Assembly: GCA_009845505.1 (NCBI GenBank)
Contig: VXZL01000633.1
Span: forward strand, 1-15,851
Direction: 5' to 3'
Length of the DNA stretch: 15,851 nucleotides
Origin: Candidatus Poribacteria bacterium
Lineage (GTDB): Bacteria; Poribacteria; WGA-4E; WGA-3G
Made by a program: the position numbers and the translations under genes. Below are positions 1,231 to 13,753 of this stretch, piece after piece; position 1 is the first letter of the stretch, and each line of letters begins with the position of its first letter. The notes below the pieces were generated by a model. It searched no databases. It was not told the origin of the DNA and saw nothing but the letters and a program-made list of their open reading frames with translations.

Positions 1231-3171
1231 ATGAAACACCCTTCCAAAAGCCCCATCACGCTACGCGCAACGCTGATTGGTATTTTCCTTATTCCATTTA
1301 ATAGCTACTGGGTCCTACACCTCAGTTATATCTGGGATTCCAACCGACCCACGAGTTTGGCACTGCTCTTCAATGTCCTATTTACGTTGCTTGTTCTTAT
1401 CGGATTCAGTACAATCCTGCGTCGCTTGCGACCGAACTTGGCGTTTACACAGAGCGAATTGCTAACCATCTATGCGATGCTCTGCCAAGCCTCCGTTTTC
1501 GCTGGACGCGATATGCTGCAAGTTTTGGTGCCGTTGATGGGTAACGGGTTCTGGTACGCAACAACCGAAAACGAGTGGGCACAACTCTTTCACCAACATC
1601 TCCCTGAATGGCTCGTCGTTGGAGAACAAGAAATATTACGAGGTTTTTATGAAGGCGAATCCACATTCTACCTTCGGACGCACATAGATGCATGGCTATT
1701 GCCGACGTTGATCTGGGTAGGCTTCTGTCTTGTCATCGGCGTAACAATGCTCTGCTTCAATGTCCTGTTACGCAAACAGTGGCAAGAACACGAACGCCTC
1801 ACCTACCCGATCGCACAACTCCCTTATGAAATCACACGAGCCGCTACAAACACAGGTCGCCTGTCAACAACCTCTCATCTCTTTTTTAATCGACGGATGA
1901 TGGTTGTTGGGTTAAGCATCGCCGCCGTGCTGAACCTTGTCTATAGTTTACATCAAATCGATCCTGTTTTCCCGACAATTCCGCTCTATCACGGATTCCG
2001 ACTCGCAGAAAAGCCGTGGAGCGCAATGAATAACCCCGGCTTCCGTATCAGTTTCTTTCCGTTTGCCATCGGCGTAGGTTTCCTGATTCCGCTTGATTTA
2101 GGGTTTTCCTGCTGGTTCTTCCATCTGTTTTGGCACTTTGAACGGATTATCGGGGATATGTTCGGTTGGCGAAGTGCCATCGGATTTCCGAGAGAGATGG
2201 CGCAAATCCGAGGGGTCTGGATCGCGCTCTTCCTCTGGACAGTGTGGATGGGACGCGCACACATCAAAGTCGTCTTGCAGACTATTTTCGGTAGATACAC
2301 ACAACCTGCAAGCGACGAAGGTGAAGCGATGCGCTATAGGACAGCAGGCATCGGCGTGCTTGTCGGGTTTATCTTGATTCTGGCATTCTGTCTGAAGGCA
2401 GGAATGTCCCTCTGGTTCGCAGCCTTATTCTTCGGACTCTATCTCGCTATGTCAATCACAATCACCCGGATCCGTGCCGAACTCGGTCCACCCGCACACG
2501 ACCTTTACAACGCCGGTCCAGACCTACTTTTGACGGACGCACTCGGTACACGCCGCATCGGCAATCGCAACCTCTCGGTGATGTCCCTCTTTTTCTGGCT
2601 GAACCATCTCTCCTACCGCGCACACCCGATGCCGCATCAACTGGAGGGGTTGAAACTCGCACACCAAACCCGTTTCAACCCTACCCAACTGATTTGGGTG
2701 TTGGCGATTGCGATCTTCGTAGGTGCGCTCTCTGCGGCGTGGGGACACCTCCATCTCTCCTATCAAGTCGGTTTAGAACAGGCACGCTCGTGGTATGCCC
2801 GCGCCGCTTTCAACAGACTTGCGGGATGGCTCTATAACCCCAGCGAAACGAGTATCAGCGGTATGCTCTATACCGCCGGTGGATTCGGCTTTGCTGTTAG
2901 CCTCCTGCTCCTACGGTGGCGATTCATTCAGTGGCCCCTACACCCTGTCGGCTATGTCGTTTCAAGTTGGTGGACATTCACTGGGTTGTGGTTTCCGCTC
3001 TTAATCAGTTGGGTCGTTAAACGGATACTGCTCTCGACGGGTGGTGTTCGCTTATATCGGCGATCCATCCCATTTTTCATCGGCTTGGTCATCGGCGATG
3101 TAATAATCGCTTCCATCATTAGTATTCTGGGGCTGATTTTCGACTTCCGCGTTGTTTATCTGAGTTGGTGA
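1231..3171 (+). CDS. Polytopic membrane protein, DUF6785/DUF6784-like
   Basis: This 646-residue integral membrane protein has about 12 to 13 predicted helices, for example near residues 12-34, 45-64, 155-180, 223-240, 277-300, 371-390, 393-413, 485-505, 545-562, 575-600 and 612-635. It matches my recollection of the DUF6785/DUF6784 family, common in Poribacteria, Armatimonadetes and Planctomycetes. A family-like block runs through residues 413-478: RIRAELGPPAHDLY, then a GTRR loop, then YRAHPMPHQLEG. A charged-to-hydrophobic motif ERLTYPIAQLP (188-198) resembles the conserved segment of oligopeptide-transporter (OPT) proteins, so a distant transporter role is possible but unproven. The ATG at 1231 has no good SD close by. 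The lipoprotein gene at 3242 follows on the same strand after 70 bp. Substrate and function unknown. Confidence 0.8.
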   Translation: MKHPSKSPITLRATLIGIFLIPFNSYWVLHLSYIWDSNRPTSLALLFNVLFTLLVLIGFSTILRRLRPNLAFTQSELLTIYAMLCQASVFAGRDMLQVLVPLMGNGFWYATTENEWAQLFHQHLPEWLVVGEQEILRGFYEGESTFYLRTHIDAWLLPTLIWVGFCLVIGVTMLCFNVLLRKQWQEHERLTYPIAQLPYEITRAATNTGRLSTTSHLFFNRRMMVVGLSIAAVLNLVYSLHQIDPVFPTIPLYHGFRLAEKPWSAMNNPGFRISFFPFAIGVGFLIPLDLGFSCWFFHLFWHFERIIGDMFGWRSAIGFPREMAQIRGVWIALFLWTVWMGRAHIKVVLQTIFGRYTQPASDEGEAMRYRTAGIGVLVGFILILAFCLKAGMSLWFAALFFGLYLAMSITITRIRAELGPPAHDLYNAGPDLLLTDALGTRRIGNRNLSVMSLFFWLNHLSYRAHPMPHQLEGLKLAHQTRFNPTQLIWVLAIAIFVGALSAAWGHLHLSYQVGLEQARSWYARAAFNRLAGWLYNPSETSISGMLYTAGGFGFAVSLLLLRWRFIQWPLHPVGYVVSSWWTFTGLWFPLLISWVVKRILLSTGGVRLYRRSIPFFIGLVIGDVIIASIISILGLIFDFRVVYLSW

Positions 3172-3858: not shown

Positions 3859-3887
3859 TTGACTTTCCCAACCAGACTTGGTATCAT
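3859..3887 (+). promoter_or_regulatory. Promoter of pyrD, predicted leaderless
   Basis: The -35 TTGACT (3859-3864) and -10 TATCAT (3882-3887) each match consensus at 5 of 6 bases, with an ideal 17-bp spacer. A TGG extended -10 immediately precedes the hexamer. Standard spacing puts the start of transcription at about 3894, one base before the ATG at 3895, so no room remains for a Shine-Dalgarno sequence. Confidence 0.6.
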
Positions 3888-3894
3888 TATCCTT

Positions 3895-4824
3895 ATGGAG
3901 ACAATAGAAACGGCACTCAACGTGAACATCGGCGGGATCGAGATGCGGAACCCCGTCATGACGGCATCCGGCACCTTCGGCTACGGAAGTGAATACGCTG
4001 ATTTCGTGGACCTAAATCAACTCGGCGCAGTTGTCGTCAAAGGCGTTACGAGTGTCCCGTGGCCCGGCAATCCGATGCAGCGTATCATGGAAACCCCCTC
4101 CGGCATGCTCAACGCCATCGGACTCCAAAACGTCGGTGTAGACGGTTTCATTTCAGAGAAACTCCCCTACCTCCGCGACTTTGACGTGCCAGTGATTGTC
4201 AATGTCTGTGGCAAAACGGTCGAAGAATACTTGACAGTGATTGAGAAACTAAACACCGCAGACGGTGTTGCTGGCGTAGAACTCAACATCTCCTGTCCGA
4301 ACTTAGATTGTGGCGGTATGAGTTTCGGTGTCGATGCAACGCTGGCATATCAACTCGTTAAAGAAGTCAGAGCTATAACACACCTACCGCTATTGGTGAA
4401 ACTCTCCCCGAACGTCACAGACATTACCGTAATTGCGCGCGCTGTCGAGGATGCCGGTGCAAACGCGCTCTCTGCCATCAACACACTCCTCGGCATGGCG
4501 ATCAACGCTGAAACACGAAAACCCGAACTGGCAAATGTGACGGGCGGACTCTCCGGGCCTGCAATAAAACCCGTAGCACTCCGATTGGTCTGGGAGGTCT
4601 ACAAAAGCGTCTCTATTCCGATTGTAGGGATGGGGGGTATTATGACCGCAAGGGATGCTGTGGAATTCTTTATTGCCGGTGCGTCTGCTGTAGCAGTAGG
4701 AACAGCGAACTTCGTCAATCCCTGTGCATCGATGGAAGTGGTGAAAGGTATCTATGACTATCTTCAGAAAGCAGATATGAAATCGGTTAAAGAATTGGTT
4801 GGAAGCTTAAAGGTCAATCTGTAA
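3895..4824 (+). CDS. pyrD: Dihydroorotate dehydrogenase, class 1B catalytic subunit
   Basis: This enzyme oxidises dihydroorotate to orotate with FMN, the fourth step of de novo UMP synthesis, in the cytosol. The 309-residue length and full TIM barrel fit the class 1 family. The N-terminal block NPVMTASGTFGYG (19-31) and VVVKG with Lys49 bind FMN and substrate. The catalytic base is Cys134 in NISCPN (131-136), which marks class 1 enzymes (class 2 uses Ser). Lys169 in VKLSPN, GGLSGPAIKP (217-226) and GMGGI (245-249) form the flavin phosphate site. FGVD at 144-147 favours class 1B, which normally needs the iron-sulfur/FAD partner PyrK to use NAD; no pyrK is in the window. A longer TTG start at 3859 lies inside the promoter and was rejected. 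pyrB lies downstream, separated by an Rpn-type gene. Confidence 0.93.
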   Translation: METIETALNVNIGGIEMRNPVMTASGTFGYGSEYADFVDLNQLGAVVVKGVTSVPWPGNPMQRIMETPSGMLNAIGLQNVGVDGFISEKLPYLRDFDVPVIVNVCGKTVEEYLTVIEKLNTADGVAGVELNISCPNLDCGGMSFGVDATLAYQLVKEVRAITHLPLLVKLSPNVTDITVIARAVEDAGANALSAINTLLGMAINAETRKPELANVTGGLSGPAIKPVALRLVWEVYKSVSIPIVGMGGIMTARDAVEFFIAGASAVAVGTANFVNPCASMEVVKGIYDYLQKADMKSVKELVGSLKVNL

Positions 4825-4875: not shown

Positions 4876-5832
4876 ATGGCACAATACTTTGATAATGCAG
4901 CAAAATATGTTATGCTTCAACACGCACAAGAATTCGCGGAATTCATGATGGGGTCTTCAGATATCATCGTTCGGGAGAAACTCGAAACGAAAGAACCCAC
5001 ACTCAAAGCGCATGAAAATGATAGCACTTTGAAGGTGGAAATCAACAATGAAACTGTGATACTCCATACAGAGGTGCAGACAGATAACAGCAGAAAACCG
5101 ATGCACTATCGTATGGCAGCATATCACGGTTTTCTCATGAATTTATATGAGCTCCCTGTCTATTCCAACGTTCTCTATCTACACCCGAGGGCAGGCAGGA
5201 ATGATAAAGGTTATTATGCGGACAAGGGTCCGGGTTATGAATACACACTACGCTATAAAGTGATAAGACTTATCGAGATAGAAGGACAATCGGTTTTGGA
5301 AATGCAGGCACCGGGATTATTGCCCTTCACGCCGCTAATGAAACCACCAGAAAGAATAGAACCAAACCGCTGGCTGGAAAAATGTATTGACGTGACAGCC
5401 TCGGCAAGCGTGGATCAAAGCACTCGTGATACTTTACTCGCAGCACTCGGCATTTTTGGTGAATTGGTTTATGAACCACAATTGATTAAAAAACTTTTAC
5501 CGGAGGGTATCATGCAAAAATCTCCTCTTCTCCAACTCTACATCCAAGAAGCTGAACAAGAAGCTCTTAAACGAGGTCTCGCACGAGGTCTCGAACAAGG
5601 TCTCGAACAAGGTCTCGAACAAGGTCTCGCACAAGGTCTCGAACAAGGCGAGAGAAAAGGCACTATCGAAAACATCATTGCATTGCTCGGAATGCAATTC
5701 AACACTGAAGCAGTCCACGCCTTGAAGCCGGCCCTTGAATCTATAGACAATTTGCAAGACCTCAGGCAATTGCTACTCACGGTTCCCCAATCTGAGAGTC
5801 TCGAAGCGTTCATGCAAACGCTACATAGATAG
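4876..5832 (+). CDS. Rpn-family PD-(D/E)XK nuclease/transposase-like protein
   Basis: This 318-residue protein resembles the Rpn (recombination-promoting nuclease, formerly YhgA-like putative transposase) family of PD-(D/E)XK enzymes, which cut DNA and stimulate RecA-independent recombination. The candidate active site is Asp49 (HENDS) followed by Glu66-x-Gln68 (HTEVQT), the usual D...ExQ pattern, with a conserved-looking MHYRMAAYHG block (76-85). Residues 234-257 are a GLEQ/GLAQ four-residue repeat encoded by a 12-bp tandem array, followed by ERKG and a helical C-terminus. Such G-x-x-x repeats are typical near the end of Rpn proteins and probably form a helix or oligomerisation stalk. It has its own promoter and sits 51 bp after pyrD and 55 bp before pyrB, an intrusion into a pyrimidine gene group. 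The biological role is unproven; a host-domesticated or mobile nuclease are both possible. Confidence 0.75.
   Translation: MAQYFDNAAKYVMLQHAQEFAEFMMGSSDIIVREKLETKEPTLKAHENDSTLKVEINNETVILHTEVQTDNSRKPMHYRMAAYHGFLMNLYELPVYSNVLYLHPRAGRNDKGYYADKGPGYEYTLRYKVIRLIEIEGQSVLEMQAPGLLPFTPLMKPPERIEPNRWLEKCIDVTASASVDQSTRDTLLAALGIFGELVYEPQLIKKLLPEGIMQKSPLLQLYIQEAEQEALKRGLARGLEQGLEQGLEQGLAQGLEQGERKGTIENIIALLGMQFNTEAVHALKPALESIDNLQDLRQLLLTVPQSESLEAFMQTLHR
5575..5646 (+). repeat. 12-bp in-frame tandem repeat, six units
   Basis: The unit GGTCTCGAACAA (Gly-Leu-Glu-Gln) is repeated six times. Units 2, 3, 4 and 6 are identical; units 1 and 5 differ by one or two bases (GCACGA, GCACAA), and a decayed seventh unit follows at 5647. 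Because the unit is a multiple of three, slippage would change protein length without shifting frame. The near identity suggests recent expansion. Confidence 0.9.
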
Positions 5833-5887: not shown

Positions 5888-6967
5888 ATGCGGCATCTGG
5901 TAACACTCGACGATCTGTCGAATTTTGAGATTGAACAGATTTTTCGACTCGCATCAGGCATGCAGTCACAACTGGAAACATGGGCGGGAATCTGTCGGAG
6001 CAAACTGCTCGCAACGCTTTTTTATGAACCGAGCACACGGACTCGGCTCTCGTTTGAAAGTGCGATGGAACGACTCAACGGCGGGACGCTCGGCTTTGCT
6101 GACCCACGCGCGACTTCCACCGCTAAAGGTGAAACCCTTGCCGATACCGCACGGATGGTGACGAATTACGCCGACATCATTGTGGTTCGACACAGCTGGG
6201 CGGGTTCAGCACGCGTTATGGCGCAGTACGCACATATTCCGGTCATCAACGGTGGCGACGGCAGCCACACACATCCGACACAAGCACTCGCTGATCTCTA
6301 TACCATTATACAGCGAAAATCGGAGGTCGAAGGACTCACCGTCGGTATCTGCGGAGATTTGCAGTTTGGCAGAGCAGCGCACTCCTTCGCACTCGCAGTC
6401 GCACGGTTCGGTGGGAAACTCATTCACATCGCGCCGAAACCGCTACAGATGCCAGCGTGGATACTTGCGTCATTGGAACAACGCTACGGTCAGAAACCGC
6501 TTGAGGTCGAAAGCGTCGCAGAGGTGATTGATCAGTTAGATGTCATCTACGTCAACAGGCTTCAGGAAGAGCGACTCCCTTCAAATATGGACGCAGCCAC
6601 CGTACGGGGCAGTTATCTGCTGAACGCAGAAGTTATGAAAAACGCGAAACCCGATGCGATGATTATGCATCCACTCCCCCGCGTCAACGAACTCGCCTAC
6701 GAGTTAGACGATGATCCGCGCGCTGCCTATTTCGAGCAATCCGCGAACGCCGTGCCGATTCGGATGGCACTGATTGCCAGTCTCATCGGACTCGAACAAC
6801 TCATTCTGACACAACCCCCGAAGCGAGACATCAGCACCTCTGCACATACGTGTGCAAACACAAACTGTGTCACGAACTATGAAACCTACTTAATTCCCGA
6901 ATGTGAAACGCTTAGCGGTGATGTCGAGTTGCGCGCTTGTGCGTACTGTGGGTATCTACTCTCGTAG
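5888..6967 (+). CDS. pyrB: Aspartate carbamoyltransferase fused to a PyrI-type zinc module
   Basis: It joins carbamoyl phosphate and aspartate, the first committed step of pyrimidine synthesis. The catalytic chain (about 1-305) has FYEPSTRTR (45-53) for carbamoyl phosphate, the mobile loop Lys80 in AKGETLADT, HPTQALAD (129-136) and HPLPR (261-265) for aspartate. At 359 residues it is about 50 longer than E. coli PyrB (311). The extra tail contains Cys322-x4-Cys327-x23-Cys351-x2-Cys354, the same spacing as the zinc site of E. coli PyrI (Cys109, 114, 138, 141), with similar CxNxNC and CxYC context. Only about 15 residues separate it from the catalytic chain, so PyrI's allosteric nucleotide-binding domain is absent. 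The SD AAAGGA (5877-5882) is 5 bases before the ATG. It lies downstream of pyrD and the Rpn-type gene. Confidence 0.92.
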   Translation: MRHLVTLDDLSNFEIEQIFRLASGMQSQLETWAGICRSKLLATLFYEPSTRTRLSFESAMERLNGGTLGFADPRATSTAKGETLADTARMVTNYADIIVVRHSWAGSARVMAQYAHIPVINGGDGSHTHPTQALADLYTIIQRKSEVEGLTVGICGDLQFGRAAHSFALAVARFGGKLIHIAPKPLQMPAWILASLEQRYGQKPLEVESVAEVIDQLDVIYVNRLQEERLPSNMDAATVRGSYLLNAEVMKNAKPDAMIMHPLPRVNELAYELDDDPRAAYFEQSANAVPIRMALIASLIGLEQLILTQPPKRDISTSAHTCANTNCVTNYETYLIPECETLSGDVELRACAYCGYLLS

Positions 6968-7023: not shown

Positions 7024-8319
7024 TTACTCCGCTGTGAGTGCACCGGCAGGTAATTCGTCTGCTTCAAGAATTGCCCGACGCGTAATCCGCCAGAACGGAC
7101 TTTCAGTGCCAACAGCTTGCCATTCGCCCGTAAAAATCTTGACAACATAATCTTTTTCGGCATCATCCAGGTCATCGGGAAAGATTTCGTTGGGGCTCCA
7201 GTTCGTGTATGTGACAGGTTCGCCGCTATCCCATTGCCACTCTCCCTCTGTTTCAACATCACTTAGCCCAATCCAAAAGGGTGCCGGGTCAAAAAGTCCC
7301 TCAAGCCACCGCTGTTCCATTTCGTCGTTAATAGAGACAAGATAGGCATTTTCTGCAGTTGCCAAGGCTTTTGCTTCCTCAGGTCCCTCAACATAAACCT
7401 CTTTGTAGGCGTGTCCATTTTCAGGGTTGACGACCCACACTCCTCTCCGGTCGAATGCCGGAGGTGTAGACGTTTCTACATCTTCCGCCACGGGCGCAAT
7501 GGGCGCACTATCAAACATCAACAGGAGATCTTCCCGTCGTTCCCCAGCATTCAGCACAAACTGCTCCGACGTGACAGAAAGGTCTTGATATGCGACTGTA
7601 ACGGTATACAGACCACCTCCACTAACATACTCCGTGAAGGTTCCATCGGCATCTGTCTGTGTCCCTCCACCTGAAGACCCACCGCCGCTGCCATCCAAAT
7701 CCTCTTGCCTCATACTTATGCGAATGCGCGCATCCGCGAGCGGAGAGCCGTCGTTGAAAACGAGCCGTCCCCGAATCCGCATACGCGGACGCACTTTAAC
7801 CTCAACGTTTTGGATGTGCACCCCGGGAGTGATAGTAAAGGTGATGCCACCAAACGCATACGGTGCATCCTGATGGTAAGTTACTTCCCCTATTTTGATG
7901 GAGAGGATCTCATCTTCAGGTTCAACGTAAAATTGTTTCTCAGTATCTATATCAAACGGTAATATTAATTGAACTTGGCCAGGGGTAATGCCCCTGAAAG
8001 AAAAAGCCCCATCCTCGTCCGTCTCTGTTTCTAACGGTTGTATCCACTCCGCCTCATCCGTATAATCATCAAACATGACATGTTGAATCGCTAACGAGAG
8101 TCCTGCAATTGACTCCCCCTCTAATCCCACAACGCGACCCGAAAACCCCACCGTGCCGTCTTGTGTCCTGTCGTGTGACACTGCAGAGAGGACAGGTTGT
8201 CGAAGATCACTACAGCCTGAAAAAAGACAGACTGCAATAACGAAGAAAAGCACTATGCCGATAAATGGATTTATTAATTGCGCATCCACAAGCCTTTGTA
8301 TAAAATCTGAACGCTTCAT
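7024..8319 (-). CDS. Lipoprotein with two CarboxypepD_reg-like domains and a C-type lectin-like domain (paralog C)
   Basis: This 431-residue exported protein has a hydrophobic segment at 18-35 and a lipobox-like FSGC with Cys36, suggesting a membrane-anchored lipoprotein. Two carboxypeptidase-regulatory-like beta domains follow: one at about 57-120 (SGRVVGLEG... and a TDEDGAFSFRGI turn), the second at about 176-268 (RIRGRLVFNDG, then TDADGTF), with a Gly/Ser insert at 210-219. After a Pro-rich linker comes a C-type lectin-like domain (about 295-418) with HAYK, AYLVSINDEMEQ, WIGL (349-352) and WQWDSGEP (361-368). No Cys lies outside the signal region, so the domain lacks the animal disulfides. 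The late WND-like motif is degraded to GEWQAV. The SD AGGAG overlaps the TAG stop of the preceding gene, predicting translational coupling. It is the last gene of a three-paralog operon. Ligand unknown. Confidence 0.8.
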   Translation of the reverse strand: MKRSDFIQRLVDAQLINPFIGIVLFFVIAVCLFSGCSDLRQPVLSAVSHDRTQDGTVGFSGRVVGLEGESIAGLSLAIQHVMFDDYTDEAEWIQPLETETDEDGAFSFRGITPGQVQLILPFDIDTEKQFYVEPEDEILSIKIGEVTYHQDAPYAFGGITFTITPGVHIQNVEVKVRPRMRIRGRLVFNDGSPLADARIRISMRQEDLDGSGGGSSGGGTQTDADGTFTEYVSGGGLYTVTVAYQDLSVTSEQFVLNAGERREDLLLMFDSAPIAPVAEDVETSTPPAFDRRGVWVVNPENGHAYKEVYVEGPEEAKALATAENAYLVSINDEMEQRWLEGLFDPAPFWIGLSDVETEGEWQWDSGEPVTYTNWSPNEIFPDDLDDAEKDYVVKIFTGEWQAVGTESPFWRITRRAILEADELPAGALTAE

Positions 8320-8331
8320 CGTAAATATCTC

Positions 8332-9651
8332 CTATTTTTGGTCCTTAATTCCTTTTTCAAGAAGTGCCATTTCTGTCATGTGGAGGATAACACTGCCCGG
8401 ATTAACGGCATACCACTTGCCATCAAAGAAGGTCATAACAGCATAATCCCTTCCACCAACATCTGAGGCTTCGGAAAAGAAGTCGTCAGGGACCCAGTTT
8501 TCATAAGCGACAGGTTCACCGTTATCCCACTGCCACTGTCCCGCTGTTTCGGTATTACTGAGACCAATCCAATAGAATTTATGCCCAAAAACCGCTTCCA
8601 ACCACGCCTGTTCCTCGGCATCGTTAATCGTGACGAGATGTGCCTTTTCATCGGCAGCTCGGGCAACCGCGGCGTCGCGCGTTTCGCAGCTAACCCTTTT
8701 ATAGGCATGACCATTGGTAGGATTTACTATCCACATCCCGTCTGATTCCTGCTCGGATGCCAGTTCAGACCCGTCAACTGCTGTTGTACGCGGCGGTTCA
8801 GGCAAAATCGGTTCGCTATCAAAGGTCAAGGTGAGCCCCTCAAAACGCTCTTCGGGTTCAAGACGAACAGCCTCAGCCTCTGCAGACAGAGTCCGATATG
8901 CCACAGAAAACGTATAGAAGGCAGCGTCATCTTTTTCGTCCAGATAATAGATAAAATAGCCTTCAGCATCCGTTCGCGGATCCCCACCCGACTGCCGACT
9001 GCCAGTTTCATTCACATCGTAAGAACGGAAGTGAAGACGAACACGCGCATTAGAAAGCGGGGTACCATCTTTAAAAAGAATACGTCCCCGAATCCGCATT
9101 CGTGGATGCACCGTAACTATGACATTATCAATATGTGTTCCGGGTTTGACACCAAACGCGATTGGGCTGAAATCATCGCGTGCGTAGAAGGTAATGTCTT
9201 GGATACGGAGGGATAGGACTTCAAGATCGGGTTCAAAATCGTCTGGTTCCATTCCGAAAGCATTAGCGTCTTGTGTATGTGGATCACTCTTTAATATCTT
9301 CTCAAAGTTCCTTGGAAGCAGGTTATCTATATTGTCCGGAAGCGCACCGAAATGCAATGGTCCTTGCGGAATGTCCGTAATCGAAAACCGCCCCTCAGCA
9401 TCTGTGCGAGCACGGCGTAACTGAGAATACTCATAAGGTAAAAAGACTCGATCCAGGTGTCCATCATCAAGTCTACTGGGAGCGACATATATTGATAAGC
9501 CAGCGACTGGATTTCCATCCAAATCAACAACGCGACCACTCAAAGTTCCTGTCTCCTCCTGAGCGGGACCGCGTAAAGTAAAACCGATGAAAAGGGCAAT
9601 GACTGCTGCCAGTAACACCAAATGCCGCTTTTTGAATGCTGAACGTTTCAT
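8332..9651 (-). CDS. Exported CarboxypepD_reg-like/C-type lectin-like protein (paralog B)
   Basis: I start this gene at the ATG ending at 9651 (439 residues), with GGAG 7 bases upstream; a TTG six codons earlier overlaps that SD and was rejected. The N-terminus is basic (MKRSAFKKRH) then hydrophobic (11-25), with no lipobox; cleavage near PAQ (29-31) or retention as an anchor are both possible. Beta domain 1 is at about 35-105 (LSGRVVDLDGNPVAG, TDAEGRFSITD), domain 2 at about 185-278 (RIRGRILFKDG, TDAEGYF). The lectin-like domain covers about 306-433, with HAYK, LVTINDAEEQAWLE, WIGL (361-364) and WQWDNGEP (373-380). Cys322 is the only Cys, so no internal disulfide is possible. It is the middle gene of the operon, 31 bp after paralog A and 12 bp before paralog C. 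It probably acts outside the cytoplasm in binding or adhesion; this is inferred from domains only. Confidence 0.8.
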   Translation of the reverse strand: MKRSAFKKRHLVLLAAVIALFIGFTLRGPAQEETGTLSGRVVDLDGNPVAGLSIYVAPSRLDDGHLDRVFLPYEYSQLRRARTDAEGRFSITDIPQGPLHFGALPDNIDNLLPRNFEKILKSDPHTQDANAFGMEPDDFEPDLEVLSLRIQDITFYARDDFSPIAFGVKPGTHIDNVIVTVHPRMRIRGRILFKDGTPLSNARVRLHFRSYDVNETGSRQSGGDPRTDAEGYFIYYLDEKDDAAFYTFSVAYRTLSAEAEAVRLEPEERFEGLTLTFDSEPILPEPPRTTAVDGSELASEQESDGMWIVNPTNGHAYKRVSCETRDAAVARAADEKAHLVTINDAEEQAWLEAVFGHKFYWIGLSNTETAGQWQWDNGEPVAYENWVPDDFFSEASDVGGRDYAVMTFFDGKWYAVNPGSVILHMTEMALLEKGIKDQK

Positions 9652-9682
9652 AATTTGTCTCCTTTTCAACGAAACATAAGGT

Positions 9683-10915
9683 TTACTGCTCTACCGGCGG
9701 TTCTTCCTTTTCAATGATAGCCGTCGTAATAAAACCCCACCGCCTGTTTCTCGGATTAACGTCTTCCCATTTTCCTGAGGGACCCATAATAACGTAATCC
9801 TCATCTCCATCGCCGGTGTCATGAGGTTCCTGCACACGCCAGTTGGTGTAAGTAAGCGGCTCGCCGTTGTCCCACTGCCATTGCCCTTCTTTCGCGATGT
9901 CGTTGAGTCCGATCCAACTCGGTTGGCCTCCAAAAACAGCCTGCAACCAATTCTGTTCGGATTCATCGTTAATTGCGACAAGGTACGCGCCTTCAGCGGC
10001 GGCTTGGGCTTGTGCGGATTCCCAACGCTCACGCTTAATCATTTTATACGCGTGCCAGTTCTCTGGTCTGATGACCCAAACATCGAATGCACTGGATCCA
10101 CCAACGGAAGCAGAAGCGGATGCGCTGAAGGAGTTCCTGCGCTGCGTAGGGAAAGGTGTAGCTGCCGGACTGTCAAATGTAAAAATCATGTCGTGCGTCG
10201 GATCCCCAGACTTAAGGATAATGGGATTCGCCTTCACAGTTTGTCCGGCGTATGTTACGGACAACATGTAAAAAGTCGGCTCCTCTATCCCGCTATCCAC
10301 ATAATACTTAAAGTAGCCTTGGGCATCCGTATGAAAACTCGAAGACTGAGAAGACTCACTGTGCAGACTTACCGTTCGCAAGCGAAATTTGATTCTCTCA
10401 TCGGCGATCGGTGTCCCATTTGCGCGCTGCACCTTACCTCGGATATGCGGATATTGTACGGTAATTTCAACGTTTCCAATGTCGTCCCCTTGCTCTACAG
10501 CAAACACAATCCCACGTTTCCATGTCCCACTCGCATAGAAAAACAGCCCTTCAATCTGAGCCTTTAGAAGCTGAACATCTACCTCACTGGATGGCAATAG
10601 CGTCAATAGCATAGGACCAGCAATAACATCAGTGATAATGAAATGCCCTTCTGAATCGGTTTCTGTTTGGAATGTCGGTGGATCTATCGGCGAACCGTGT
10701 TGATCCTCATACACTGGAAACCAGGCACCGTTGCCATCAAAAACAGAGACAAGCCCTATTGTGAGTCCCTCAATCGGATTTCCCGCCTCATCAACGACGC
10801 GTCCAGAGAAAGTTGTTAGGGCGCGATCCTGTCCATCGCTCTTCAAGGGAGCTACGAGCAAAAGCACAACACTTCCGATAAACAGTACGAGGAACATGAA
10901 GTCAAAGCGGTTCAT
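9683..10915 (-). CDS. Exported CarboxypepD_reg-like/C-type lectin-like protein (paralog A)
   Basis: This is the first gene of the three-paralog operon, 410 residues, with a strong SD (AAGGAGG) 8 bases before its ATG. The N-terminus MNRFDF is followed by a hydrophobic segment (7-24) and no lipobox. Beta domain 1 is at about 36-108 (FSGRVVDEAGNPIEG, TDSEGHFIITD) and domain 2 at about 155-248 (HIRGKVQRANG, TDAQGYFKYY). A Ser/Ala-rich linker (SFSASASASVGGSS, 262-275) leads to the lectin-like domain (about 279-402) with HAYK, AYLVAINDESEQNWL, WIGL (334-337), WQWDNGEP (346-353) and a preserved WEDVN (383-387). That last motif corresponds to the calcium-binding WND element and is lost in paralogs B and C. 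There is no Cys at all. It is flanked divergently by the DgoD-like gene. Function beyond extracytoplasmic binding cannot be stated. Confidence 0.8.
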   Translation of the reverse strand: MNRFDFMFLVLFIGSVVLLLVAPLKSDGQDRALTTFSGRVVDEAGNPIEGLTIGLVSVFDGNGAWFPVYEDQHGSPIDPPTFQTETDSEGHFIITDVIAGPMLLTLLPSSEVDVQLLKAQIEGLFFYASGTWKRGIVFAVEQGDDIGNVEITVQYPHIRGKVQRANGTPIADERIKFRLRTVSLHSESSQSSSFHTDAQGYFKYYVDSGIEEPTFYMLSVTYAGQTVKANPIILKSGDPTHDMIFTFDSPAATPFPTQRRNSFSASASASVGGSSAFDVWVIRPENWHAYKMIKRERWESAQAQAAAEGAYLVAINDESEQNWLQAVFGGQPSWIGLNDIAKEGQWQWDNGEPLTYTNWRVQEPHDTGDGDEDYVIMGPSGKWEDVNPRNRRWGFITTAIIEKEEPPVEQ

Positions 10916-12563: not shown

Positions 12564-13753
12564 ATATTCAAAATGGCACACAAAGCACACAAGATCGCCT
12601 TGTGTCCAACTGATGCACAGGTTGCGTGGTTTCAACAACAATGTGGTTATGCACGGTTTGCCTTCAACTCGGCTTTGGCAGATTTCAAGGCGGGTTTATC
12701 AGAAGGCGTGTTCCATTCCTTCATAAACCTCAATAATCGTTGGAATCAACGTAAAAAAGCGTTGGACTGGGCAGGCGAACAAGACCAACGCGCAGCTCTG
12801 CACGGTGTAAAAAACCTATCCGATGCTGTGACGCGCTGGCGAAAAAAGCAAAATCGTTTTCCGAAGTTCAAGAAACGTGGAAGCCGTCAATCGTATACCG
12901 TCGAAGGATACCAGTGCAAAGTCGAAGGCAAACATATCAAGTTGCCGAAAATCGGCACGGTCAAGATGTTTTCGGAATTACGTTTTGCTGGCAAAATCAA
13001 ACAGGTTACTATCTCAAGGAGCGCACATCGTTGGTTTGTCTCGATCCTTGTTGACACAGGAACACCTAACGTTCCACGGGACACGCGTGGGCTCCCTGTG
13101 ATTGGCATAGATGTAGGTATCAACACACTGGCAACCCTTGATAATGGTAAGCAATACGAAAACCCAAGACCGCTAAAGCGTTACGAGCGAAAGTTGGCAC
13201 GCGAACAACGCAAGTTAAGCCGAAAGGTATTCTTAAGTCAGAACTGGTATAAGCAGAAACGCAAAGTGGAACGCCTGCATTATCGGATTGCTTGTATCCG
13301 AAAAGACGCTCACCACAAGGTAACTACGGATATAGTTCGCAAAGCGTCTGCTATCGGTATAGAAACACTTTCGGTCACGAATCTACTCAAGAACAGAAAA
13401 CTTGCCAAAGCCTTATCCGATAGTGCGTTAGGTGGTTTCCTTGAGAAACTTAAGACGAAAGCCGAAGGGCTTGGCATACCGATTGTTCAAGCACCGCAGT
13501 TTTTCGCAAGTTCCAAGATGTGCAGCAGTTGTGGACACAAGAAAGACGATCTGACGCTTTCAGACAGAAACTATCAGTGTAACCACTGCGGAACGTCTAT
13601 AGATAGAGACCAAAATGCAGCAATCAACCTAAAACAGGTCGCGGTGGGATACACCGAGACGTAAAACGCTTGTGGAGTTTCTATAAGACCTCCACAACGG
13701 AGGCACGAAATGACGAAGCAAGAAGCCCACGACTTTAGACGTGGGAGTATCAC
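12480..13753 (+). mobile_element. IS200/IS605-family, IS1341-type element carrying only tnpB
   Basis: The element carries a complete tnpB and no tnpA transposase, so it would need a TnpA in trans to move. The right end is marked by a typical hairpin, CCCACG-loop-CGTGGG (13726-13745) with ACTTTAG in the loop, followed by AGTATCAC; I place the end at 13753. A second hairpin, TTGTGGAG with CTCCACAA (13670-13697), lies inside. The left end is less certain: I prefer the junction after TTAC (12476-12479), a known target tetranucleotide of this family, directly before the left hairpin. An alternative is after TTAAC at 12377. There are no terminal inverted repeats or target duplications, as expected. 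It lies 7 bases before the isomerase-like ATG at 13761. Confidence 0.7.
12573..13664 (+). CDS. tnpB: TnpB, RNA-guided nuclease of an IS200/IS605-type element
   Basis: TnpB is the compact RuvC nuclease ancestral to Cas12; with an omega RNA from the element's right end it cuts DNA next to a target-adjacent motif and helps the element persist. At 363 residues it is slightly below ISDra2 TnpB (about 400). The N-terminal wedge/recognition region (1-170) contains the early motif CGYARFAFNSAL (24-35). RuvC-I is VIGIDVGINTLA with Asp180, RuvC-II is IGIETLSVTNLL with Glu264, and RuvC-III is SIDRDQNAAINLK with Asp344/Asp346. The zinc ribbon has Cys317, Cys320, Cys336 and Cys339. All catalytic and metal residues are present, so the protein looks active. 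The ATG has no SD; the upstream leader is highly structured. Confidence 0.92.
   Translation: MAHKAHKIALCPTDAQVAWFQQQCGYARFAFNSALADFKAGLSEGVFHSFINLNNRWNQRKKALDWAGEQDQRAALHGVKNLSDAVTRWRKKQNRFPKFKKRGSRQSYTVEGYQCKVEGKHIKLPKIGTVKMFSELRFAGKIKQVTISRSAHRWFVSILVDTGTPNVPRDTRGLPVIGIDVGINTLATLDNGKQYENPRPLKRYERKLAREQRKLSRKVFLSQNWYKQKRKVERLHYRIACIRKDAHHKVTTDIVRKASAIGIETLSVTNLLKNRKLAKALSDSALGGFLEKLKTKAEGLGIPIVQAPQFFASSKMCSSCGHKKDDLTLSDRNYQCNHCGTSIDRDQNAAINLKQVAVGYTET

Follow-up and report, generated by a model that had tools for sequence, protein, structure and literature searches.

The window analysed here is a stretch of 15,851 nucleotides from a genome of Candidatus Poribacteria, a mostly uncultured phylum, and it carries on its forward strand pyrB, the gene for the catalytic chain of aspartate carbamoyltransferase (ATCase). 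The 359-residue product ends in a zinc domain of the kind that E. coli carries on PyrI, its separate regulatory chain, and no counterpart of the nucleotide-binding half of PyrI was found. The positions of the domains and of the other features under discussion are collected in Table 1. The curated NCBI model TIGR00670 gives the protein 321 bits against a cut-off of 236.95, which places it among the catalytic chains. Its cysteines are residues 36, 155, 322, 327, 339, 351 and 354, four of which form the motif Cys322-x4-Cys327-x23-Cys351-x2-Cys354; a first-pass annotation had called this spacing identical to that of the PyrI zinc site, and comparison with the E. coli K-12 record (C-PNSN-C, 23 residues, C-KY-C) bears this out. 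The open reading frame (ORF) stops five residues past Cys354, and no PyrR-like domain follows the zinc domain.

Table 1. Coordinates of the features discussed; positions are those of the window unless a locus (L) is named.
Feature	Position	Strand	Basis
pyrB, aspartate carbamoyltransferase with C-terminal PyrI-type zinc domain, 359 aa	5888..6967	+	TIGR00670; Pfam OTCace_N, OTCace and PyrI_C (PyrI_C below cut-off)
Carbamoyl-phosphate domain, residues 2-141	5891..6310	+	PF02729, E 1.7e-48
Aspartate-binding domain, residues 148-298	6329..6781	+	PF00185, E 7.8e-26
Linker, residues 304-320	6797..6847	+	Secondary structure of the model; weakest constraint along the chain (dN/dS 0.18)
PyrI-type zinc domain, residues 314-357	6827..6958	+	PyrI_C match, tail profile against PDB, hhalign, Foldseek
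Zinc knuckle 1, Cys322-ANTN-Cys327	6851..6868	+	Alignments; equals E. coli PyrI Cys109/Cys114 with Asn111/Asn113 equivalents
Zinc knuckle 2, Cys351-AY-Cys354	6938..6949	+	Alignments; equals E. coli PyrI Cys138/Cys141
pyrD, dihydroorotate dehydrogenase, same pathway, 5' of pyrB	3859..4824	+	PF01180, E 5.2e-83
PyrR-binding RNA (RF00515), 5' of pyrR-pyrC-carA in the window's genome	L189 6235-6362		58.6 bits, gathering score 54
PyrB-zinc-PyrR-like chains of another phylum	L151 385-2337; L153 760-2763; L154 124-2337; L150 784-1722 (cut)		

The window protein on its own is only faintly recognized by Pfam, whose PyrI_C model (PF02748) matches residues 321-356 with 17.6 bits (E 0.0035), short of the gathering cut-off of 23.4. 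The group as a whole is more telling. Of 21 diverse members, 19 gave a PyrI_C match at E<=1, with 2.1e-6 as the best value, and another zinc ribbon appeared once, at E 0.29; the same family also stands in the precomputed Pfam annotation of 21 of 120 relatives, the best 120 of 8000 scored in the protein database. When a profile of 31 tails was run against all PDB sequences, all 12 matches at E<=10 were PyrI chains, the best at E 1e-4 and the remaining ones between 0.08 and 0.37. Profile-profile comparison by hhalign with 17 PyrI sequences gave 97.1% (E 6.6e-11), against 0.9% for the window's one TnpB zinc-ribbon sequence, which was used as a control. The full-length fold search, in which the catalytic part matched ATCase chains of E. 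coli, P. abyssi, human and plant, covers residues 1-306 only, and the tail was therefore modelled alone, with a mean predicted local distance difference test (pLDDT) score of 89.8 and a predicted template modelling (pTM) score of 0.68. The top 14 of the 38 Foldseek matches to this model are all PyrI (probability 0.84-1.00, best E 1.1e-3), the best match outside PyrI has a probability of 0.13, and the structural comparison likewise ranked PyrI first, with a middling Z score. The tail thus has the PyrI zinc-domain fold as well as the four-cysteine spacing, and its last 45 or so residues are a PyrI-derived zinc domain, an identity that we regard as firm and that agrees with the first reading of the locus. 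That reading had named a better match to an unrelated zinc ribbon as what would overturn it; PyrI ranked over every ribbon in both the profile and the fold searches. The weak Pfam score of the single protein and the middling Z are what a chance resemblance to PyrI has in its favour, and since the profile, PDB, Foldseek, structural and hhalign tests all put PyrI first with no notable rival ribbon, we have rejected it as next to impossible.

The tail is a standing feature of the phylum. All but one of 72 distinct Poribacteria PyrB proteins taken from the fetched loci have the motif; the exception (L065) is cut by a contig end, and the gap before the third cysteine is exactly 23 in 65 of the 71 that have it. 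Among the 120 database homologues it occurs in 118, again with a gap of exactly 23 in most (108/118); P0097 is changed after the third cysteine and P0115 is truncated. A motif kept in 71/72 and 118/120 proteins is not a product of chance. A profile of the tail detects it, in a single copy each, in 80 of 84 Poribacteria genomes; all but one of the 55 good-quality genomes have it, as do 20 of the 21 genera. The four misses are G048, where the PyrB match (residues 1-102 only) stops at a contig end, and G013, G015 and G025, which yielded no comparable PyrB. The near relatives of the window PyrB in public genomes are Poribacteria. The tail had no match in phage records, and plasmid records hold PyrB relatives all below 60% identity, two of which, from Ilyobacter and Halobacterium, were used as references that carry PyrI. 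When the protein search for the tail was repeated with a divergent member as query, it found that member only.

The first-pass annotation had suggested that the protein might be a relic left by reduction. If that is taken to mean decay, the pattern of substitution speaks against it. For 24 non-overlapping pairs drawn from 51 distinct genes of 359 codons and pooled, the ratio of nonsynonymous to synonymous substitution rates (dN/dS) is 0.042 in the body, 0.178 in the linker and 0.129 in the tail. A functionless, decaying tail would be expected to evolve faster than the body, and it does so about threefold; nevertheless, a value of about 0.13 is far under the neutral expectation and indicates purifying selection, so that the tail is not decaying. 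Moreover, the four cysteines, Asn324, Glu332 and Tyr353 vary hardly or not at all, even among members that share as little as about 50% identity overall, and the tail is present in 80/84 genomes. With these observations, a decaying relic is highly improbable. An in-frame TAA in G003 is a stop three codons early, and the protein (L031) still ends past the fourth cysteine.

The second half of the claim, that the nucleotide-binding part of PyrI is missing, is confirmed. At E<=10, a search of the window's own genome with the allosteric domain of PyrI (PF01948) gave no match, and PF02748 is found there at the pyrB locus only. That genome is a metagenome-assembled genome (MAG) with an estimated completeness of 86.5%; since it is incomplete, it is the absence across the phylum that carries the claim. 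PF01948 was found at E<=0.01 in none of 60 Poribacteria genomes, the window's own counted, nor in eight further ones, whereas the same search found it in seven of 14 control genomes, E. coli and T. maritima included. A search for a separate pyrI, which had been proposed at the outset, found none with either model in the window's genome, and none with PF01948 in the 68 Poribacteria genomes, this one among them. As judged by PF01948 in the genome, an E. coli-type PyrB+PyrI holoenzyme is not present, and the absence of the allosteric half is firm.

The active-site residues are intact. Fourteen active-site positions (in E. coli numbering, Ser52, Thr53, Arg54, Thr55, Ser80, Lys84, Arg105, His134, Gln137, Arg167, Arg229, Gln231, Pro266 and Leu267) are identical in 15/15 aligned Poribacteria rows, the window protein (L001) among them; L123, a member beyond these rows, has Pro at Thr53. 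Other parts of the chain have changed. Asp236 and Tyr240 matter for the T and R states of ATCase, and each is kept in one of the 15 Poribacteria rows, against 15 and 17, respectively, of 19 PyrI-bearing PyrBs. Lys164 and Glu239 are described as important for both states in excerpts of PMC6056424; the former is Arg in 12 of the 15 rows and the position of the latter is Asp or Glu in 12. By the alignment, most of the residues associated with the T state in E. coli have been lost.

The surface that receives the zinc domain in E. coli can be located from its contact residues cGlu109 and cAsn132, as given in excerpts of PMC6056424 and PMC6981877; cGlu109 is the published bond partner of rAsn111 (PMC6056424, in excerpt). 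Both positions belong to the carbamoyl-phosphate domain, so the aspartate domain, on which docking of the tail had originally been sought, is probably the wrong place. On the side of the tail, the equivalents of rAsn111 and rAsn113 are kept in 114 and 107 of the 118 motif-bearing tails among the best 120 of 8000. But the cGlu109 position is Ala in all 15 Poribacteria rows and the cAsn132 position is His in 12, so that the catalytic-regulatory interface, if present, has been remodelled; Arg113 is kept in 11 rows. An AlphaFold2 model of the full-chain monomer, built with 112 sequences, has a mean pLDDT of 93.0 and a pTM of 0.92, with every ten-residue block of the tail at 84 pLDDT or above. A pTM of 0.92 bounds the mean tail-to-body error at 7.5 Å or less, even with a perfect body, and a floating tail (residues 307-359, 15% of the chain) would give about 0.84. 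The tail is thus predicted to be confidently placed, and the model argues for one definite position against the body; the pTM points to a position, not to which one. The concern, raised at the start, that the tail might fold away is met as far as a definite placement goes; the docking site itself is not visible from the scores.

Taken together, we consider it probable (roughly 60%) that the gene encodes a natural, permanently zinc-clamped catalytic trimer, with the zinc domain on the catalytic chain, without PyrI and without CTP/ATP control. The docking place, the oligomer and the kinetics are drawn by analogy with E. coli ATCase: three chains would form the trimer, and each zinc domain would dock, in cis or on a neighbouring chain, on the carbamoyl-phosphate domain as that of E. 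coli PyrI does. As in the c3m3 complex described below, it would stabilize a trimer held in an active state, with hyperbolic kinetics and no response to CTP, ATP or UTP; of these predictions, that of lost CTP/ATP control is well founded. Pyrimidine flux would then be controlled mainly by the supply of carbamoyl phosphate.

In E. coli the link between two catalytic trimers runs through dimers of regulatory chains, which are held together by the allosteric domain that is absent here, and Tyr240 and Asp236, seldom kept in Poribacteria, come from a region regarded as a trimer-trimer contact. Both points weigh against a hexamer in which the zinc domain would bridge two catalytic trimers in place of PyrI dimers. 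The idea draws on the E. coli enzyme, whose regulatory chains join two catalytic trimers (PMC4581275, in excerpt) and whose zinc-domain residues lie at the catalytic-regulatory interface (PMC6056424 and PMC6981877, in excerpts). We find such a hexamer unlikely and keep to the zinc-clamped trimer.

Control at the level of carbamoyl-phosphate supply would involve PyrR. A stand-alone PyrR scores over the cut-off in 38 of 40 Poribacteria genomes. In the window's genome, pyrR lies on another contig than pyrB and is followed by the dihydroorotase gene pyrC (TIGR00857, 419 bits; cut-off 279) and then by carA, for the small subunit of carbamoyl-phosphate synthase (TIGR01368, 465 bits; cut-off 307). 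At L191 and L192, pyrC- and carA-like ORFs also come after pyrR, with carB next in L191 (by eye). PyrR-binding RNA lies upstream of this cluster in the window's genome (Table 1) and of pyrR in L192 (56.1 bits), which makes two of the four searched pyrR stretches over threshold; L191 scores 48.0, below it, and none was found in L190. The window itself showed no PyrR-binding RNA, with no Rfam match at E<=1. We take the RNA before pyrR-pyrC-carA as a sign of PyrR attenuation in Poribacteria. Among the 14 control genomes, PyrI (seven genomes) and PyrR (six) never occur together. These findings on PyrR fit an ATCase without nucleotide control, the flux being set by a carbamoyl-phosphate supply that PyrR attenuation of pyrR-pyrC-carA, elsewhere in the genome, may govern. 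A different route of control is described for plant-type ATCase, by UMP through a Phe of the active-site loop (PMC7878868, in excerpt). The literature drawn on in this work consists of excerpts of the papers cited and of PMC6245113.

The same core was found outside Poribacteria. A search with PF02748 of 984 genomes sampled from four other phyla (198, 240, 247 and 299) gave scores over the cut-off in 38 of them (9, 2, 8 and 19). Matches under the cut-off came from 1, 4, 3 and 4 genomes per sample, and in the 299-genome sample a further, fifth genome had a second match that was weak. These counts are lower bounds, since PF02748 scores even the window tail below its cut-off and may miss tails of the Poribacteria type. 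Frame analysis of the 38 revealed a separate PyrI in 29 and full PyrBI fusions in three (L131, L138 and L139). In the remaining six, all from the phylum of the Desulfuromonadaceae MAG G090, a zinc domain without a preceding nucleotide half is present; PyrB immediately precedes it in L149 and L151-L154, and the stretch of L150 is cut so that any PyrB part lies outside it. All six zinc domains score over the Pfam PyrI_C cut-off, and PF01948 was found in none of these genomes at E<=0.01. Four of the chains (L150, L151, L153 and L154) run on into a PyrR-like phosphoribosyltransferase domain; L153 reaches 173.3 bits with the PyrR profile (curated cut-off 138), and the other three fall just under it (129.7, 127.8 and 131.2 bits). 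The PyrI zinc domain without the nucleotide half in a second phylum, partly with a PyrR-like extension, is new here, and a PyrB-zinc-PyrR-like chain was not found among the matches listed in the open literature searched. After the zinc domain, L149, L151 and L153 also carry a stretch such as YVGHTRSRKY...FDSIKQAEELGYEPY without a Pfam match, which by eye resembles a degenerate Ada-type metal-binding repeat.

Proteins that are fused in some lineage are classically suspected of associating in others, and these chains, together with the stand-alone PyrR of nearly all Poribacteria, suggest that the zinc domain could be an adaptor for a regulator in trans, likeliest PyrR itself, with the enzyme still under nucleotide control through this other sensor. 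In the longer stretches around L153, L151 and L154 (L194, L195 and L199), however, a separate pyrR scoring over the cut-off (197.6, 210.9 and 210.6 bits) adjoins the fusion on its 5' side, so that the fused copy is an extra paralogue, and the window's genome has pyrR with pyrC and carA, not with pyrB. carA- and carB-like ORFs lie 3' of the fusion in all three stretches (by eye). We give the adaptor little credence. We hold at similarly long odds the broader idea that the zinc domain serves as a coupling module whose partners can be exchanged. PyrB-zinc would then be a class of ATCase without PyrI that takes different sensors: the nucleotide domain in E. coli, a PyrR-like phosphoribosyltransferase fused to the chain in a number of genomes from the other phylum, and stand-alone PyrR binding in trans in Poribacteria. 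If this were true, transcription and the first committed enzyme would both be under the control of one protein, PyrR.

How the PyrB-zinc arrangement arose was addressed with a tree of 52 rows, arbitrarily rooted, from which four of 15 intended PyrI-less rows (L089, L090, L094 and L096) are absent for want of a recovered frame. The Poribacteria rows form one clade (support 100/98) and the other PyrB-zinc rows a second (96/79), both on the PyrI-bearing side. Ten of the 11 PyrI-less PyrBs make up the opposite side; L087, a long branch of uncertain place, falls on the PyrI-bearing side. Two-domain PyrI occurs in both archaea and bacteria among the control genomes, which makes loss of the nucleotide half from a PyrB+PyrI enzyme, perhaps twice, the simpler account. 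The reverse course would start from a PyrB that already carried the zinc domain, and PyrI would have originated as that domain split off and acquired a nucleotide half. It could draw on the two clades without an allosteric half; given that the deep forks lack resolution, that the root is arbitrary and that loss is simpler than repeated gain, we judge it unlikely, if not without some credit.

Several neighbours of pyrB in the window deserve mention. By resemblance to the window pyrD, a pyrD-like ORF also lies 5' of pyrB in L080 and L109, and not in L114 or L115. Between pyrD and pyrB, an ORF of 318 codons (4876-5832, + strand) has no Pfam match and contains a run of LEQG-type repeats toward its C-terminus; judged by eye, we take it to resemble Rpn-type proteins. 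On the - strand at 7024-10915 there follow three successive ORFs that look alike by eye (7024-8319, 8332-9669 and 9683-10915), with termini of the type NGHAYK or similar...WIGL; Pfam finds CarboxypepD_reg and C-type lectin domains in the first. Farther off, the + strand encodes a 363-residue TnpB-like IS605 OrfB protein (12573-13664; OrfB_IS605 and a Cas12f1-like TNB domain) and a 646-residue protein made of DUF6785 and DUF6784, two domains of unknown function (1231-3171).

ATCase is the textbook allosteric enzyme, and Poribacteria, with the contact module but no sensor found, separate two roles that a single chain combines in E. coli. The occurrence of the same core in a second phylum, partly with a PyrR-like domain, suggests that ATCase control has been rebuilt from parts more than once. 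The chains of the G090 phylum are like that of the window in that PyrI_C comes directly after PyrB without PF01948; they differ in that their PyrB match is split by an insert in the aspartate domain, in that four of six continue into the PyrR-like domain and in that they form a separate clade. The full PyrBI fusions, of which Thermotoga maritima reportedly has one (PRK13376 type), also join catalytic and PyrI-derived zinc parts on a single chain, but they carry the allosteric domain that the window protein lacks; with the fusion model NF009916 the latter scores 98.9 bits against a cut-off of 800, its best stretch being residues 43-301. The PyrI-less trimers of the Bacillus subtilis type, which at least in B. 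subtilis are not known to carry a zinc tail, resemble the window enzyme in lacking a regulatory chain and, presumably, nucleotide control, yet ten of 11 PyrI-less PyrBs lie opposite the PyrI-bearing side of the tree that holds the window PyrB. E. coli ATCase has a separate PyrI, whereas here the zinc domain is on the catalytic chain, neither the nucleotide half nor PyrI was found, and the window group lacks Glu109 and has all but given up Asp236 and Tyr240. The closest parallel is c3m3 from the Schachman laboratory, which is said to consist of the E. coli catalytic trimer and three 70-residue zinc fragments of PyrI. Like the predicted window enzyme, it combines a catalytic trimer with the zinc domain and has no allosteric domain; c3m3 was made in the laboratory and in trans, whereas the Poribacteria protein is a natural fusion in cis, and the PyrBs of this phylum thus offer natural enzymes for asking what the zinc domain alone does for the trimer.
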